DNA from: Candidatus Saccharicenans sp.
GTDB taxonomy: Bacteria; Acidobacteriota; Aminicenantia; Aminicenantales; Saccharicenantaceae
Assembly: GCA_026414545.1 (NCBI GenBank)
Contig: JAOAIU010000060.1
Location: forward strand, 62,001 to 126,000
Length of the DNA: 64,000 bases
Direction of reading: 5' to 3'
Under the pieces are notes generated by a model. That model searched no databases and was not told the origin of the DNA. It saw nothing but the letters and a program-made list of their open reading frames with translations. Of this stretch, positions 41,998 through 48,824 are shown piece after piece. Made by a program: the position numbers and the translations under genes. Positions within the stretch are counted from its first letter, which is position 1. Every line of letters begins with the position of its first letter.

Positions 41998-42783
41998 ATG
42001 TTGATAGTTTTTGACATTGGCAATACCACTACCGGAGTGGGCCTTTTCCAAGGCAAGAAGCTCCTGGCCGACTGGAAAATAAAGAGCGACCGGGAGAAAA
42101 CGGCCGATGAATACGGGATCATGCTGAGAAACCTGCTCGACCACGGAAAGTTTTCGGTCCAGAAAATCAAGGGGGCAATAATTTCCTCGGTGGTTCCGCC
42201 CCTCACCCCGGTCATTCAGTCAGCCTGCGAAAAGTTCTTTCAAGTCAGACCACTGGTGGTCGGGCCGGGAATTAAAACCGGAATTCCGATTCTCTATGAA
42301 AACCCGGCCGAGGTGGGCTCCGACCGGATTGTGGTAGCCTGCGCCGCCTACGAAAAATATGGCGGCCCCTGCCTGGTGGTGGACTTTGGCACGGCTACCA
42401 CCTTCGATGTCATTTCGGCCAGAGGCGAGTATCTGGGCGGAGCCATAGCGCCGGGTCTCGAGATTTCGGCCGAGGCCCTCTACCTGAAGACAGCCAAGTT
42501 GCCCCGGATTGAAGTCCGAAAGCCAAAATCAGCCATCGGCCGGACAACCGTCAGCAGCATGCAATCTGGTTTGTTTTTTGGCTATGTTGGCCTGGTCAGG
42601 AACATAATCGACCAGATTGCCAGCGAGCTCGGAGCCCGGCCAACAGTGGTGGCTACCGGTGGCCTGGCCAGCCTGGTGGCCGGGGAGATTCCGGAAATAG
42701 CCCACTGCGAGCCTGACCTGGTCCTGCAAGGCCTTCGCCTGATTTATGAAAAGAACCGGGCCTCGGAGAAGGTGGAGAGATGA
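41998..42783 (+). CDS. coaX: Type III pantothenate kinase
   Basis: CoaX phosphorylates pantothenate, the first step of CoA synthesis, and is not feedback-inhibited by CoA. The 261-aa ASKHA-fold protein has FDIGNTTTGVGLF (phosphate 1), VGSDRIVVACAAYEKYG, VVDFGTATTFD (phosphate 2), GGAIAPGLEIS and VVATGGLASL. Its end overlaps the start of the next gene (ATGA). Confidence 0.96.
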   Translation: MLIVFDIGNTTTGVGLFQGKKLLADWKIKSDREKTADEYGIMLRNLLDHGKFSVQKIKGAIISSVVPPLTPVIQSACEKFFQVRPLVVGPGIKTGIPILYENPAEVGSDRIVVACAAYEKYGGPCLVVDFGTATTFDVISARGEYLGGAIAPGLEISAEALYLKTAKLPRIEVRKPKSAIGRTTVSSMQSGLFFGYVGLVRNIIDQIASELGARPTVVATGGLASLVAGEIPEIAHCEPDLVLQGLRLIYEKNRASEKVER

Positions 42784-43421
42784 GCGAAGACTGGACCCGG
42801 CGCCAGGAATATTACCAGAAGATTGCCAGGGCTTTCCTGAAGCACCAGCCGGCTATCTTTTTCATCCCGCCGCGGGATCTGGAGCTGATCTCCGAGTGGG
42901 AAAAACTTGGCCTGCCTCTGGAAGTGATCATCGAAGGCATCGACCGGGCCTTCGCCCGCCGGCTGGCCGGCCGTAGAAAAAAGAATATTTACTCCTTGAG
43001 CCAGTGCGAAAAGGAAATTCTCAAGGCTTACGCCCAGCACCAGGAAAGGTTGGTCGGGCAACAGGCTCCACGGACCACTGGCCAGGCCGAGAAGGCAACC
43101 CGGCTGCTCCAGGAGATCCACTCCAGCCTCGAGTCCCTGCCCCCCGAATGGTCCGAGGTCCGACGAATCCTGTCCGAAGCCCTGGTGGCCCTGCAGGCCG
43201 ACCCGCCAGAGGAAGCCCGGCTGGAATCCCTGGATGAAGAGCTGGACCGGGTGCTCTGGGATTTGACGCCAGAACAGGAAAAACAACGGGCTATAGCCGC
43301 CGCCCGGCAGGATTATCCCGGACGCACCGACAGCCAGCTGGAAGAGATAGGGCGAATCAGGATGGCCAGGGAAAGGCGCCAGCAGTTCAGGCTGCCCCGC
43401 CTGGCCCTCTTTTACTATTAA
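42780..43421 (+). CDS. Protein of unknown function downstream of coaX
   Basis: A 213-aa soluble, helical, charged protein. It overlaps coaX by ATGA, so its translation is coupled. The N-terminal segment (AIFFIPPRDLELISEWEKLGLPLEVIIEGIDRAF, written here in parts: FFIPPRD, ISEWEKLGLP, EGIDRAF) suggests a helical domain reminiscent of replisome-organiser-type helices, but this is a weak impression. The C-terminus is Arg/Gln rich. No signal peptide, membrane segment or metal motif is present. Base usage is like the neighbours. I do not recognise the family. Confidence 0.7.
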   Translation: MSEDWTRRQEYYQKIARAFLKHQPAIFFIPPRDLELISEWEKLGLPLEVIIEGIDRAFARRLAGRRKKNIYSLSQCEKEILKAYAQHQERLVGQQAPRTTGQAEKATRLLQEIHSSLESLPPEWSEVRRILSEALVALQADPPEEARLESLDEELDRVLWDLTPEQEKQRAIAAARQDYPGRTDSQLEEIGRIRMARERRQQFRLPRLALFYY

Positions 43422-43461: not shown

Positions 43462-45519
43462 ATGGAAAACAGGATAATTGAGTTTATAAAAAATAATAAA
43501 AAGCCGGTCAGCTATAACCGCTTGATCGGAGCCTTAAAATTGAATAAGCAGGAAAGAAAAAAGTTGCCGGCAACCCTGAGGCACCTGGAAAAGAAAGGGT
43601 TACTGAAAATAATGGGAGACCGGGTGGGCCAGGTTCGCCCGGCCACCACCTTCAGGGGAATCTTTTCCCTCAACCCGCGCGGCTTCGGCTTCGTTACCCC
43701 GGAGGACCCGACCCAGGGAACGCGTGACATATTCATCCCGCCCCATCAAACCGCCGGGGCAGTGACCGGAGACCTGGTGGAAGTGTTGGTCAGGGAACAA
43801 GGACTGGCCGGCAAACCTGAGGGCCGCATCCTCAGAATCGTCAAGAAAGGCCGGAGCTCCCTCTACGGGCTTTTCCTGGAGATAAATTATCAGCCGTTCG
43901 TGCTGCCCATGGACACCCTGTTCGAAGAACCGGTACCGGTTAAGATCAAAGGTCGGAAAAAACCACGGCCCGGGCAGATAGTAGAGATAAACCGGACCTC
44001 CCTGGAGCTGCAACGGGTTCTCGGCTACCAGGACGACCCGGGTGTTGACCTGCAGGTGGTCATCAACCAGCACAACCTGCCAAAAGAATTTTCCGACCAG
44101 GCCCTGGCCGAGGCCGCCGCTCTGCCCGAACAGCCCGGCCCCCAGGATTTCCAGGACAGGGTTGACCTCCGCAACTGGACCACGTTTACCATAGATGGAG
44201 AAAAGGCCCAGGACTTCGACGACGCCGTCAGCATCAGAAAACTGGCTGGCGGGAACTACCTGCTCGGAGTTCATATCGCTGACGTCTCCCATTATGTGAA
44301 ACCAGGCTCAGCCCTTGACCGCGAAGCCTATCTTCGCGGCACCAGCGTTTATTTTCCCGACCTGACCCTGCCCATGCTTCCCGAGAAACTGTCCAACGGC
44401 CTGTGCAGCCTGCGGCCCAGGGTGCCAAGACTGACCGTCTCGGCCGTCCTGGAGATAGACCGCAGCGGCCAGGTGGTCAAAGCTGATTTTTATCCCTCGG
44501 TCATCCAGACCGTTGAGCGCCTGACCTATACCACGGTCAGCAGGATTTTCCAGGGCGACCTGGAGGAACAGAGCCGCTACCAGCATATCCTGCCGGACCT
44601 GATGCAGATGAGGGAACTGGCCAGAATTCTTAAGTCCAGGCGCCTGAGGCAGGGTAGCCTGGATTTCGACCTGCTGGAGCCAGAGCTGGTTTACCAGGAA
44701 GGATTGTTGACGGCTGTGGTTCCTTCCGAGCGGAACGAAGCCCACTGTCTGGTGGAAGAATTCATGTTAATGGCCAACGTAGCCGTGGCCAGCTACCTGA
44801 CTGAACAGGGCCAACCCTGCCTGTACCGCGTCCATCCTGCTCCCGTCCGCTCTGACCTGGAAAAGCTGCGGAACCTGCTGGTACACTTCGGCCTCGACCT
44901 GCCACGCTCCAGTCAGATAAAATCGGCTGACCTGCAAAAGATCATAGAGGCCTTCCGGGGTAAACCCGAGGAGAAATTCATCACCATCCAGGTGCTTCGC
45001 TCCCTCAGGCTGGCCGTGTACTCGGACGAAAACTGTGGCCATTTCGGGCTGGCCCAGTCAGCCTATACCCATTTCACCTCACCCATCAGGCGTTACCCCG
45101 ACTTGACCATTCACCGCATTCTGAAACGGGCTCTGTCCGGCCGGAAACCCCGACCGCTGCCCCTGGCCAGCCTGGCCCTGCACTGCTCCCAGCGAGAAAG
45201 AATCGCCGACGAAGCGGAAAGGTCGCTCATAGAGTGGCGAATACTCAGGCTGCTGAAGAACAAGCTCGGCCAGGAATTCTCTGGCATCATCACCGACATC
45301 AACCGGGCTGGCCTGGTGGTCGAACTCGATGATTATTTTATCGACGGGCTGGTTCCCTATTCGGCCCTGGGTGACGACTTTTTCCTGCGGAAAAATGAAA
45401 AGGTGCTTCGGGGCCGTTACACGGGCACCACTTTCTCCCTGGGAGACAGGATCAGGGTGGTCCTGGCCAGCTGCAACCCGCTCTTGAAAAAAGTAGAATT
45501 TGCCCTGGCCGGTCGCTAA
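43462..45519 (+). CDS. rnr: Ribonuclease R (RNase II/VacB family exoribonuclease)
   Basis: A processive 3'-5' exoribonuclease, 685 aa. An N-terminal winged helix (1-60: KPVSYNRLIGALKLNKQERKKLP) precedes two cold-shock domains (about 65-220), the RNB catalytic domain with TIDGEKAQDFDDAVS carrying the metal-binding aspartates and GLAQSAYTHFTSPIRRYPDL, and an S1 domain (about 605-685). It lacks the long basic tail of E. coli RNase R. The Shine-Dalgarno AAGGAA precedes the ATG. The SelB-like gene starts 27 nt downstream. Confidence 0.96.
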   Translation: MENRIIEFIKNNKKPVSYNRLIGALKLNKQERKKLPATLRHLEKKGLLKIMGDRVGQVRPATTFRGIFSLNPRGFGFVTPEDPTQGTRDIFIPPHQTAGAVTGDLVEVLVREQGLAGKPEGRILRIVKKGRSSLYGLFLEINYQPFVLPMDTLFEEPVPVKIKGRKKPRPGQIVEINRTSLELQRVLGYQDDPGVDLQVVINQHNLPKEFSDQALAEAAALPEQPGPQDFQDRVDLRNWTTFTIDGEKAQDFDDAVSIRKLAGGNYLLGVHIADVSHYVKPGSALDREAYLRGTSVYFPDLTLPMLPEKLSNGLCSLRPRVPRLTVSAVLEIDRSGQVVKADFYPSVIQTVERLTYTTVSRIFQGDLEEQSRYQHILPDLMQMRELARILKSRRLRQGSLDFDLLEPELVYQEGLLTAVVPSERNEAHCLVEEFMLMANVAVASYLTEQGQPCLYRVHPAPVRSDLEKLRNLLVHFGLDLPRSSQIKSADLQKIIEAFRGKPEEKFITIQVLRSLRLAVYSDENCGHFGLAQSAYTHFTSPIRRYPDLTIHRILKRALSGRKPRPLPLASLALHCSQRERIADEAERSLIEWRILRLLKNKLGQEFSGIITDINRAGLVVELDDYFIDGLVPYSALGDDFFLRKNEKVLRGRYTGTTFSLGDRIRVVLASCNPLLKKVEFALAGR

Positions 45520-45546: not shown

Positions 45547-46653
45547 ATGAAAAAGAAAATCAGGTTAGAGTCAACCAGTTTTTATGCGGCCGCCGAATTA
45601 CGGCCGCTCCCCCCGGTGAAGGAGTTGAGCGGGAGACTCATATTGCCAGAGCGAAAATACCCGGCCTCGGTCCTGGTCACCTCGGCGAATTCCAACCGCA
45701 GCCAGCAGCCCTACCTGCTTGTAACCTCCAGACTGCCGGAACCTCCGGCCTGGAACGACCGGCTTCAATTTCAGCCGGCCGGTTCGGCCGAGCAGGTTCA
45801 ACTCCGGGTTATCTGCCCTGGCGCCGACCGCTTCGCCAAGCTCAAAGAAGAAAAACTCATAGCCTGGTTGGACCGTCTGGCCGGTTCGGCAGAAGAGATG
45901 CTGCTGGCTCTGGCGGAGGAAGCCGGTGTTCGTGGCCTCAGGCAGCAAGACCTGTCTACTTTCTGCCGGCTGGCTCCGGCCGAACTGCGCCGCCTGGCCA
46001 TGAACCTGGAAAAAGACGGACAGCTCTACATCCTGGAATTCTCACCGCTTTTTCTCCTGAGCCAGAGAAGTTTCAGCTTTCTGCTGGGTAAGATCGCCGG
46101 CTACGTGGAAAGCTACCATCAGAAAAGACCGGCCGAAACCGGAGTGCCTTTCAAAAAAATAAAGGAGAGGTTTGGTCTGCCCAGGCCTATTCTGCTACTG
46201 GCTCTCAACCGCCTGGCCCGGGACGGAAAATTCATGCTGGAAGGCGACCTGGTATCTCTGAGCAGCTTTCAAACCACTCTATCCGGGGAAGAGGCGGCCA
46301 TCCTCCGAGATATCGAGAACCTGCTGCTCCAGGAAAAATTTTCCTCTTCCTCCTTCGACCAGCTGGTCAAAAAATTCAGGCTCCATCCCAGCCGTCTGAC
46401 CACCCTGCTCGACCTTCTGCTCCGCCAGAAAAAAATCGTCAAGAGCCAAGAAGGCTTCCTGCTTCATGCCGACTGGCTGGAGAATCTTAAGCAACAGCTT
46501 ACCCTGATGAAAGCCAGGGGACAGAAGGAGCTGAGCGTCGCCGATTTTAAGAAATTGACCGGGCTGACCAGAAAATATGCCATTCCGCTTCTGGAATTCC
46601 TGGATGAACTGGGCCTGACCCGCCGGGTCGGCAACCGGCGCCTCATTCTCTGA
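45547..46653 (+). CDS. SelB C-terminal-like winged-helix protein lacking the GTPase domain
   Basis: A 368-aa protein. The last 45 residues (LSVADFKKLTGLTRKYAI, PLLEFLDELGLTRRVGNRRLIL) closely match the terminal winged helix of SelB, the domain that binds SECIS RNA. Upstream, about 130-320, three more winged-helix-like units can be traced (RGLRQQDLSTFCRLAPAELRR; GVPFKKIKERFGLPRPILL; FSSSSFDQLVKKFRLHPSRLT). The first 125 residues include QLRVICPGADRFAKLK, reminiscent of the end of SelB domain III. There is no P-loop, DCPGH or NKXD, so the EF-Tu-like GTPase is absent. It starts with a normal ATG and has an intact frame. It may be a decayed selB or an RNA-binding protein with a new role. No selA, selC or selD is nearby. 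Confidence 0.75.
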   Translation: MKKKIRLESTSFYAAAELRPLPPVKELSGRLILPERKYPASVLVTSANSNRSQQPYLLVTSRLPEPPAWNDRLQFQPAGSAEQVQLRVICPGADRFAKLKEEKLIAWLDRLAGSAEEMLLALAEEAGVRGLRQQDLSTFCRLAPAELRRLAMNLEKDGQLYILEFSPLFLLSQRSFSFLLGKIAGYVESYHQKRPAETGVPFKKIKERFGLPRPILLLALNRLARDGKFMLEGDLVSLSSFQTTLSGEEAAILRDIENLLLQEKFSSSSFDQLVKKFRLHPSRLTTLLDLLLRQKKIVKSQEGFLLHADWLENLKQQLTLMKARGQKELSVADFKKLTGLTRKYAIPLLEFLDELGLTRRVGNRRLIL

Positions 46654-46693: not shown

Positions 46694-46718
46694 AATTCCT
46701 ACTATTTTAGTAGGAATT
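46694..46718. terminator. Perfect 10-bp hairpin between convergent genes
   Basis: AATTCCTACT (46694-46703) pairs with AGTAGGAATT (46709-46718) around ATTTT. It sits between the ends of the SelB-like gene and the 698-aa gene. No T-run follows directly on either strand (a T6 comes 12 nt later on the plus strand), so it may be an imperfect bidirectional terminator or mRNA 3'-end stabiliser. Confidence 0.5.
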
Positions 46719-46727
46719 GCGGGCCGA

Positions 46728-48824
46728 TTATTTTTTCTCTTTCTCTTCTTCCTCGGCCGGCCCCGGCTGTTTCTTGCCCAGAGCCGACTTCAGCATCTCG
46801 GCGAAGAACCCGAATTTGGGTTCCTCCTTGGTCACCTCTATTTCTACCGGGATGGTTTCCTCACCGCCCGCGGCCGCCTCTTCCTGCTCTTCTTCCTGGG
46901 CTTTTATGGCTTCCAGGGCCTCAATTTCCGACTCTTCTTCCATTATCTTTTCTTCGATCACCCGCCTTTCGCTCTTCTTGGGCTTGGGCCCCTTTTCTTC
47001 GGCCTTGGGTTTTTTCTTCTTAAGCGGCTTTTCTTTTTCCTTTTCTTTTTCCTTCTTCAGAGGCTCCAGGTGTATCTGAATTTCGGGCTGGGCTGTGGCC
47101 GGGGGTGCTTCCTCTTCAACCGGGCCGGCTTCTTCCGGAACTTCGGCCTGGGCGGGGGCCTGTTCGGCTTCCACCCGGGTCTCCTCAGCCTCACCCGAAG
47201 CCAGCTGTTCGGCCAGCGACGATAGCAATGAGGCCTCGGCCCGGGCCTCTTCTTCGGCCGGGATTTCTACCGGGGCCTTGACTTCCTGGTAGAAATACAT
47301 TCCTTCCTTTTTCTCCGAGGCCACAAACTCCGGGGCAGCACTGAGGACGTATTCCACATCTTCGGCCGTGGTCGGCTTCAAGAGATCAACCATGTGATAA
47401 AGCCTCAGGAAGTGAACCGAACGGGTATTCCCGGTCAACTCGGGGGTGGTCAGAATTTTTACCAGAAGCTGCCTCAGGTCCAGGTCCTGACTCTCTTCAG
47501 ACAGCTGGAGTAATCTGGTCACCACCTCTTTTTCCAGGAGAATGCTCTTGTTGGGCATGGCCAGGGTAAAGACTTCCTGTCCGCTGAATATAAAGCGCCC
47601 GCTTTCCCGGTCATATTCCAGGAAGAAAGTCGAGGTTTTTTTCTTGGATTTCTTAATCCAGAAAGTCAACCGGTCGGGACCTTTCTTGTCCAGGGTCAGG
47701 CTGGTGCCCTGAGGAATGTTATTGGACCGGAAGAAATCGGCCAGACCCAGCAGGTAATTTCCTTCAGGGAAATAATAGACGGTGTAGACTTTCCCGTCCT
47801 CGTCATCGACCAGCTGGTACTCGCGCGAGTCAAACTCCCGGCTCAGGCTGCGGGGCACACGGATGGCCCCGGACAGGATTTCCCGCCAGGTCAGATAGAC
47901 CTTGAAGGGGAAATTCTCCACCCTGGTATGCTGCAGGCCCTCAACCTCGCCCAGGTCGGGCACAACCACCGGCTCGGCCGAAATGGGCAGACCAGAAGGC
48001 AGGTTGTTGAGCACGCTTTTAAGGTGCCACTTGCCCCAGTTGCTGGTTGACAGGCAGGTGAACTCGCGCCGGTACTTTTTCTCCAGCAGGTGATTAAGGG
48101 CCAGGCAATAGAGCTCAAACAGGTCGGAGGAAGGCTCCAAGCCAAAATGCTGCCGAACCAGGTTCTGGGTCGACTCGGAACTGATGGAACCGGCCAGGGC
48201 AGCAGAAATTTCCCTGACCTTATCTTCGGTTATCTCGGGTTTTTTGGAATTGTGCTGCCAGAAATCATTCCAGCCGAAAAAGCTGTCAGAAGCCGCCAGC
48301 ACCTTGCGCAGGTTTCTTTCCAGGGTTTTAAGGTCCTTTTCAGTGAGGGGCAGTTCGGTCAGCCTCGGGTCCTGTTCCTGGCCCAGGATGGCCGGTTCCA
48401 GACCCTTGTTCTCCAGGTTGGAGGGGAGCAGAACCTGAGTCTTGGTCTTCTTCATGTAATCGATGTACTTCCGGAAAGGACCGCCCCCGTCATAATCAAC
48501 TTCCAGCATTTCGCACTGGTAACCGGGAAAGCTCACCTTGTTGACTATCCTGAGCACCACCCCGCCCTGAAAATGCTCGGTTTGCTTGCTGCCGATCTGA
48601 AGATTCTCATCATATTCTTTGTAGATGAAATCACCGACCTCGTAACGGGCAGAAGGGTCGTAGACTTTGACCGGCTGATTTCTCTGGCTGGCCGTTTTGG
48701 CGAAGGCCAGCTTTTCGGCCAGCTCGGCCGTCGACAGCGGACGGTTGGTCCGAAGTAATTCCTGTTCAACCACAGCCATGTCTTCGGCAGTTATGGCTGT
48801 AAGCTTTTGTGTCTCTTTTTCCAT
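46728..48824 (-). CDS. Large protein of unknown function with long charged C-terminal tail
   Basis: A 698-aa cytoplasmic protein. Residues 10-40 (VVEQELLRTNRPLSTAELAEKL) look like a helix-turn-helix of the HARE/winged type. The middle (60-540) is a globular mixture I do not recognise, with a small beta domain near 60-130 (ARYEVGDFIYKEY, GGVVLRIVNKVSFPG). From about 545 the sequence is low-complexity: Glu/Ala rich, then a Lys/Glu block (about 605-650), then Glu rich again, ending in KFGFFAEMLKSALGKK and an acidic-lysine tail. It follows argF by 3 nt, so it is the last gene of the COG2403-arcC-argF operon. Function unknown. Confidence 0.75.
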   Translation of the reverse strand: MEKETQKLTAITAEDMAVVEQELLRTNRPLSTAELAEKLAFAKTASQRNQPVKVYDPSARYEVGDFIYKEYDENLQIGSKQTEHFQGGVVLRIVNKVSFPGYQCEMLEVDYDGGGPFRKYIDYMKKTKTQVLLPSNLENKGLEPAILGQEQDPRLTELPLTEKDLKTLERNLRKVLAASDSFFGWNDFWQHNSKKPEITEDKVREISAALAGSISSESTQNLVRQHFGLEPSSDLFELYCLALNHLLEKKYRREFTCLSTSNWGKWHLKSVLNNLPSGLPISAEPVVVPDLGEVEGLQHTRVENFPFKVYLTWREILSGAIRVPRSLSREFDSREYQLVDDEDGKVYTVYYFPEGNYLLGLADFFRSNNIPQGTSLTLDKKGPDRLTFWIKKSKKKTSTFFLEYDRESGRFIFSGQEVFTLAMPNKSILLEKEVVTRLLQLSEESQDLDLRQLLVKILTTPELTGNTRSVHFLRLYHMVDLLKPTTAEDVEYVLSAAPEFVASEKKEGMYFYQEVKAPVEIPAEEEARAEASLLSSLAEQLASGEAEETRVEAEQAPAQAEVPEEAGPVEEEAPPATAQPEIQIHLEPLKKEKEKEKEKPLKKKKPKAEEKGPKPKKSERRVIEEKIMEEESEIEALEAIKAQEEEQEEAAAGGEETIPVEIEVTKEEPKFGFFAEMLKSALGKKQPGPAEEEEKEKK

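Follow-up and report, generated by a model that had tools for sequence, protein, structure and literature searches.

A gene in the window, by which we mean the whole 64,000-nucleotide stretch of DNA analysed here, encodes SelB from domain III to the C-terminus, with the GTPase domain and domain II missing. The SelB tail evidently now has another RNA-related job in class Aminicenantia, since this paralogue, for which we have coined the name SelBL, is kept class-wide and most members of the class lack selenocysteine. Judged from sequence and predicted structure, SelBL most likely reads RNA hairpins and serves in RNA turnover or in translation, a reading that we consider probable. The gene and its parts are as follows.

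45547-46653, forward strand: SelBL, GTPase-less SelB paralogue, open reading frame of 368 aa
45571-45831, forward strand: degenerate SelB domain III (beta-barrel), residues ~9-95, from hhalign and six strands in the AlphaFold model
45832-46062, forward strand: linker helix and winged helix 1 (WH1), residues ~96-172, from the 1lva alignment starting at residue 113 and AlphaFold helices and strands
46063-46269, forward strand: winged helix 2 (WH2, Pfam SelB-wing_2), residues ~173-241, PF09106 E 1.5e-6
46270-46467, forward strand: winged helix 3 (WH3), residues ~242-307, from 1lva and 1wsu alignments and the AlphaFold model
46468-46650, forward strand: winged helix 4 (WH4, Pfam SelB-wing_3), residues ~308-368, PF09107 E 2.9e-18
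46570-46578, forward strand: R342-K343-Y344, equivalent to R606-K607-Y608 of Moorella SelB

SelBL is SelB without its GTPase domain and domain II

The frame is uninterrupted over its 368 residues. In a Pfam search, SelB-wing_3 matches residues 325-366 and SelB-wing_2 residues 187-238, both above the curated cut-offs, and no match to GTP_EFTU, the EF-Tu-like GTPase domain, is found in the protein; against the NCBIfam SelB equivalog TIGR00475 it scores 36.3 bits, below the curated cut-off of 242.25 bits. The best PDB match found by phmmer is 1lva, a C-terminal fragment of Moorella SelB comprising four winged helices, of which residues 1-255 align with residues 113-367 of SelBL (E 2.1e-27), improving to E 1e-42 when a family profile is the query. 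An AlphaFold model (pLDDT 74.5, pTM 0.53), built on a shallow alignment of the window protein and five close relatives, shows an N-terminal six-stranded barrel followed by four HHH-EE units. Foldseek ranks 1lva (E 3.6e-15), 5lzb and 4zu9 at the top for this model, the latter two being full SelB structures that align over 366 and 361 columns. Sequence and model thus agree that all four C-terminal winged helices of SelB are present. The first-pass annotation, made from the letters of the window, had described an intact, seemingly retained frame with what appeared to be four winged helices, the last of them SelB-like, and no EF-Tu-like GTPase motifs, and in each of these respects it was right; the SelB similarity also extends well past the final 45 residues.

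That description was, however, incomplete, for residues ~9-95 are a remnant of domain III, which in SelB joins the tail to the body of the factor. Using hhalign, residues 9-112 of the main group of SelBL proteins, taken alone, align with SelB residues 273-380, which form domain III (prob 92, E 5.3e-7), and nowhere else in SelB aligns comparably with this N-terminal profile. The whole main group is collinear with SelB residues 272-635 (E 6.5e-35), and it is this collinearity, together with the barrel and the four winged-helix units of the model, that identifies SelBL as SelB from domain III to its end. For domain II, the tRNA-binding barrel, there is neither an alignment nor room in the main group, the match beginning at SelB residue 272. 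SelBL alone cannot hydrolyse GTP or deliver tRNA.

Domain III itself is dispensable. Most of family f6 lacks it, as does genus g14, their frames of ~256-284 aa containing the winged-helix part only, and because it has been lost at least twice we place the function in the winged helices. In family f11 the protein is longer (~470 aa), and the added N-terminal stretch, collinear with domain II, may represent that domain, although this alignment is not significant (P 0.07).

Selection is strongest in WH4, the winged helix that binds SECIS in true SelB

SelBL is under purifying selection: compared with five relatives at 80-84% identity, the whole protein has a dN/dS of 0.11-0.17. By domain, the values are 0.13-0.32 for domain III, which evolves fastest, 0.06-0.11 for WH2, 0.04-0.10 for WH3 and 0.03-0.14 for WH4, the last being lowest in most pairs.

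WH4 is the SECIS-binding unit in true SelB, where R606, K607, Y608 and R624 are, we take it, the residues that touch SECIS RNA (Moorella numbers here assume that 1lva starts at residue 377). The equivalents of this basic core are present in SelBL. Among 32 GTPase-less proteins R342 is conserved in 100%, K343 in 97% and Y344 in 94%; at the same positions in 15 full SelB proteins, R and K are conserved in 100% and Y in 87%. More broadly, R342, K343, Y344, E350, D353, T358 and R360 (Moorella R606, K607, Y608, E614, D617, T622 and R624) are each kept in at least 94% of the GTPase-less proteins, and full SelB is largely alike. Surrounding this common core is a WH4 signature specific to the paralogue, consisting of F334, T338, I346 and P347. 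WH2 differs in another way, having a mean net charge of +5.3 in SelBL versus +1.4 in the full SelB proteins of the class, values that are uncorrected for sequence relatedness; this basic domain may form a second nucleic-acid surface.

Gene order around SelBL and the link to RNase R

Two neighbouring features bear on the partners and possible targets of SelBL.

43462-45519, forward strand: rnr (RNase R), Pfam RNB E 2.3e-113, plus OB_RNB, CSD2 and S1
46694-46718, forward strand: hairpin with a 10-bp stem, terminator-like, between convergent genes, its stem conserved in relatives

The end of rnr lies 27 bases from the start of SelBL on the same strand. Across the order, rnr is directly upstream of SelBL and on the same strand at 35 of 35 loci (the window and 34 related ones), mostly with an overlap or a gap of less than 50 bases. 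The possible association with RNase R raised by the first-pass annotation is thus borne out by gene order at this level, but not deeper in the class: the order is rnr-pgi-selBL in families f9, f10 and f11, pgi is joined and rnr not near at the one scorable f8 locus, and neither gene is near SelBL in family f12. Moreover, in most of the order both genes belong to a longer collinear block, valS-birA-coaX-hyp-rnr-selBL followed by a 698-aa protein, otc and arcC. For these reasons the adjacency is modest-to-weak evidence of a working partnership, and a link between SelBL and RNase R is plausible on gene order.

Two artefactual readings of the locus were considered and rejected. SelBL is not a selB broken by a frameshift, as rnr and not a GTPase lies upstream in all relatives of the order; nor are long frames such as L047 (991 aa) fusions of SelBL with RNase R, rnr being in another, overlapping frame. 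In family f8, the 892-aa frame of L171 (4980-7655, genome G097) contains both a pgi-like part (40-440) and a GTPase-less SelB (603-891), and is a possible fusion; its relatives have pgi and SelBL as separate neighbours.

The hairpin was considered as a special target of SelBL and rejected. Its 8-bp stem, TCCTACTA...TAGTAGGA, is intact in the window and in four of five relatives, the left arm being altered in L006. The pattern is not enriched in the genome (8 occurrences against 7 for the reversed control), and since it is no commoner than this control the hairpin is probably a bidirectional terminator. Two proteins of the neighbourhood have no Pfam match at E 0.01: the 698-aa protein (46728-48824, reverse strand), which is convergent with SelBL and conserved in position across the order, and a 213-aa protein found order-wide between coaX and rnr (42780-43421, forward strand).

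Proposed function

We propose that a SelB paralogue shed its GTPase domain and domain II and persisted as a stand-alone RNA-binding protein independent of selenocysteine. WH4 would keep its grip on an RNA hairpin via the RKY...R surface, and the basic WH2, perhaps with WH3, would add a second contact to RNA or to the ribosome. SelBL could then work as an RNA-structure-specific adaptor or as a translation or decay factor, presumably co-expressed with RNase R. Reuse of a SECIS-binding module for RNA binding had been suggested by the first-pass annotation, and the suggestion is supported by selenocysteine-independent conservation across the class and by the WH4 core. A more specific proposal, which we put forward tentatively and think some way from likely, is that SelBL is a dedicated RNA-hairpin receptor that guides either RNase R or the ribosome towards RNAs with structure; if true, a post-transcriptional system universal in a class mostly without selenocysteine would have been made from the SECIS-reading module.

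The alternative that survives best, possible if some way from likely, is that SelBL is a ribosome-associated factor sitting near the 30S mRNA entry side, like the SelB tail on the 70S ribosome, and acting on mRNA with structure or on ribosomes that are stalled or still maturing, with hairpin specificity secondary. Full-length alignment of the model to ribosome-bound SelB (5lzb), a near-universal retention that suggests a housekeeping role, and RNase R as a neighbour are all in its favour; the loss of domain III in some lineages argues against it.

Winged helices can bind DNA as well as RNA, which counts against our RNA-binding reading and raises the idea that the tandem array has turned transcription factor. 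Many DNA-binding proteins have this fold, the WH2 of SelBL is more basic than that of SelB, and CRP/FNR-type regulators give weak structural matches to the SelBL model. However, the structural matches to SelB are far stronger, and the most conserved part of the protein is the WH4 surface that it has in common with RNA-binding SelB. We thus regard a DNA-binding regulator as unlikely.

SelBL is near-universal in a class where SelA is not

A match to SelB-wing_3 is present in 134 of the 142 genomes of class Aminicenantia and in 63 of the 64 good ones, the single good genome lacking it (G103) carrying a fragmentary match to the SelBL family. Most of these matches sit in stop-to-stop frames of 260-470 aa, and several that are longer are simply the short gene in a frame that runs on. 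SelA is above its cut-off in only 34 of the 142 genomes, and the 19 genomes of the window's genus give no SelA match at all. About 100 genomes that lack SelA keep SelBL. Frames of full-SelB size are found in roughly a quarter of the genomes, usually at loci with selA, selD or tRNA-Sec. Some genomes contain both forms, for example G111, with the full SelB L094 and the GTPase-less L093. The same genome has a selD with one in-frame TGA (C769 1437-2369), which is probably a selenoprotein SelD, and the single-contig genome G004 has two full-length SelB genes, L082 and L083, that are 84% identical.

Such co-occurrence, and the WH4 core common to both proteins, might suggest that SelBL modulates selenocysteine insertion by competing with SelB for SECIS hairpins. 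As a general function this is disfavoured, and we give it very little weight, given the many genomes that keep SelBL without SelA, the whole genus of the window included, and a host genome with neither SelD nor tRNA-Sec.

Beyond the class the search extended to the rest of the phylum, with the weakest matches sampled. The frames among the matches listed there are ~580 aa or more except for a handful of shorter ones, which may be contig ends, and the complete frames examined are full-length SelB. No relative of SelBL was found in viral contigs, and plasmids gave only weak partial matches of <28% identity, including one with a selB annotation.

The host genome and selenocysteine

The host assembly (2.52 Mb, 93% complete) was searched for the genes of selenocysteine insertion. 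Its single SelB-wing_3 match is the SelBL gene itself. SelA has no match, and SelD has none above the curated cut-off, only sub-threshold ones. No SelB GTPase is found: all other matches to the SelB model are below the cut-off and confined to its N-terminal GTPase part, and most lie either in frames of ~600-720 aa, which we take for IF-2, LepA and EF-G, or in short frames. The tRNA-Sec model gives matches in every genome, controls included, and its two best matches here are tRNA-Ser by ARAGORN. Nor is there a full-length selB elsewhere in the genome with SelBL better assigned to another winged-helix family.

The first-pass annotation had offered, as one of two possibilities, a split factor in which the SelBL tail and a separate SelB GTPase together insert selenocysteine. 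Only the architecture speaks for this. In the absence of selA, selD, selC and a SelB GTPase it is excluded for the host genome as assembled, and as selenocysteine-using relatives carry an intact one-piece SelB, we find it scarcely credible.

Relation to known systems

SelBL matches bacterial SelB (domains III-IV; 1lva, 1wsu, 2uwm, 5lzb) end to end in sequence and fold, sharing the order domain III, WH1-WH4 and the RKY...R core of WH4. It differs in having no GTPase domain, domain II, selenocysteine machinery in the genome or linkage to selA and selC, and in forming a separate clade. Among described systems, archaeal aSelBL comes closest: like SelBL, it is a SelB paralogue kept by organisms without selenocysteine, and its classical GTPase function is disrupted (PMC3037878). 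In architecture it is the mirror image of SelBL, retaining the elongation-factor body but not the C-terminal SECIS-recognition domain (PMC3037878). Tsr1 is a SelB/EF-Tu relative without GTPase activity that is used in 40S maturation; it is eukaryotic and retains an inactive GTPase fold, which SelBL lacks (PMC4895721). Searches of an open-access library, which covers no subscription papers, turned up no account of a bacterial SelB without its GTPase. SelBL is therefore a new arrangement of known domains, near-universal in one class.

SelB has been proposed as a signature gene of selenocysteine decoding (PMC1794560). In a class in which selA is present in only about one genome in four, the RNA-reading half of SelB is near-universal, and SelB-wing matches alone wrongly predict selenocysteine use. 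SelBL clearly exemplifies the reuse, on its own, of the RNA-binding module of a recoding factor, and poses a testable question, namely which RNA a SECIS-reading module binds when there is no SECIS.

Origin of SelBL

A tree of the winged-helix region with 100 rows places the 44 GTPase-less proteins in a single clade (SH-aLRT 99) that excludes the full SelBs, and 13 of the 14 full SelBs of the class group as a separate clade; a smaller tree agrees on the GTPase-less clade (99.5). That SelBL is a decaying remnant of a lost selB, as its missing domains and fast-evolving domain III might suggest, is refuted by this separation from true SelB together with class-wide intact frames, low dN/dS and conserved gene order, and we attach next to no probability to it. 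An AU test does not reject a tree in which the divergent form of f12 groups with full SelB (p-AU 0.15-0.33). The shared derived residues T338 and I346 favour one origin, as does shared gene order for f8-f11, and the tree does not favour the f12 form having arisen independently. SelBL thus probably arose once, near the base of class Aminicenantia. In family f12 (L076-L080, L093, L173), a conserved protein lies convergent to SelBL, and its L078 copy has TPR matches.
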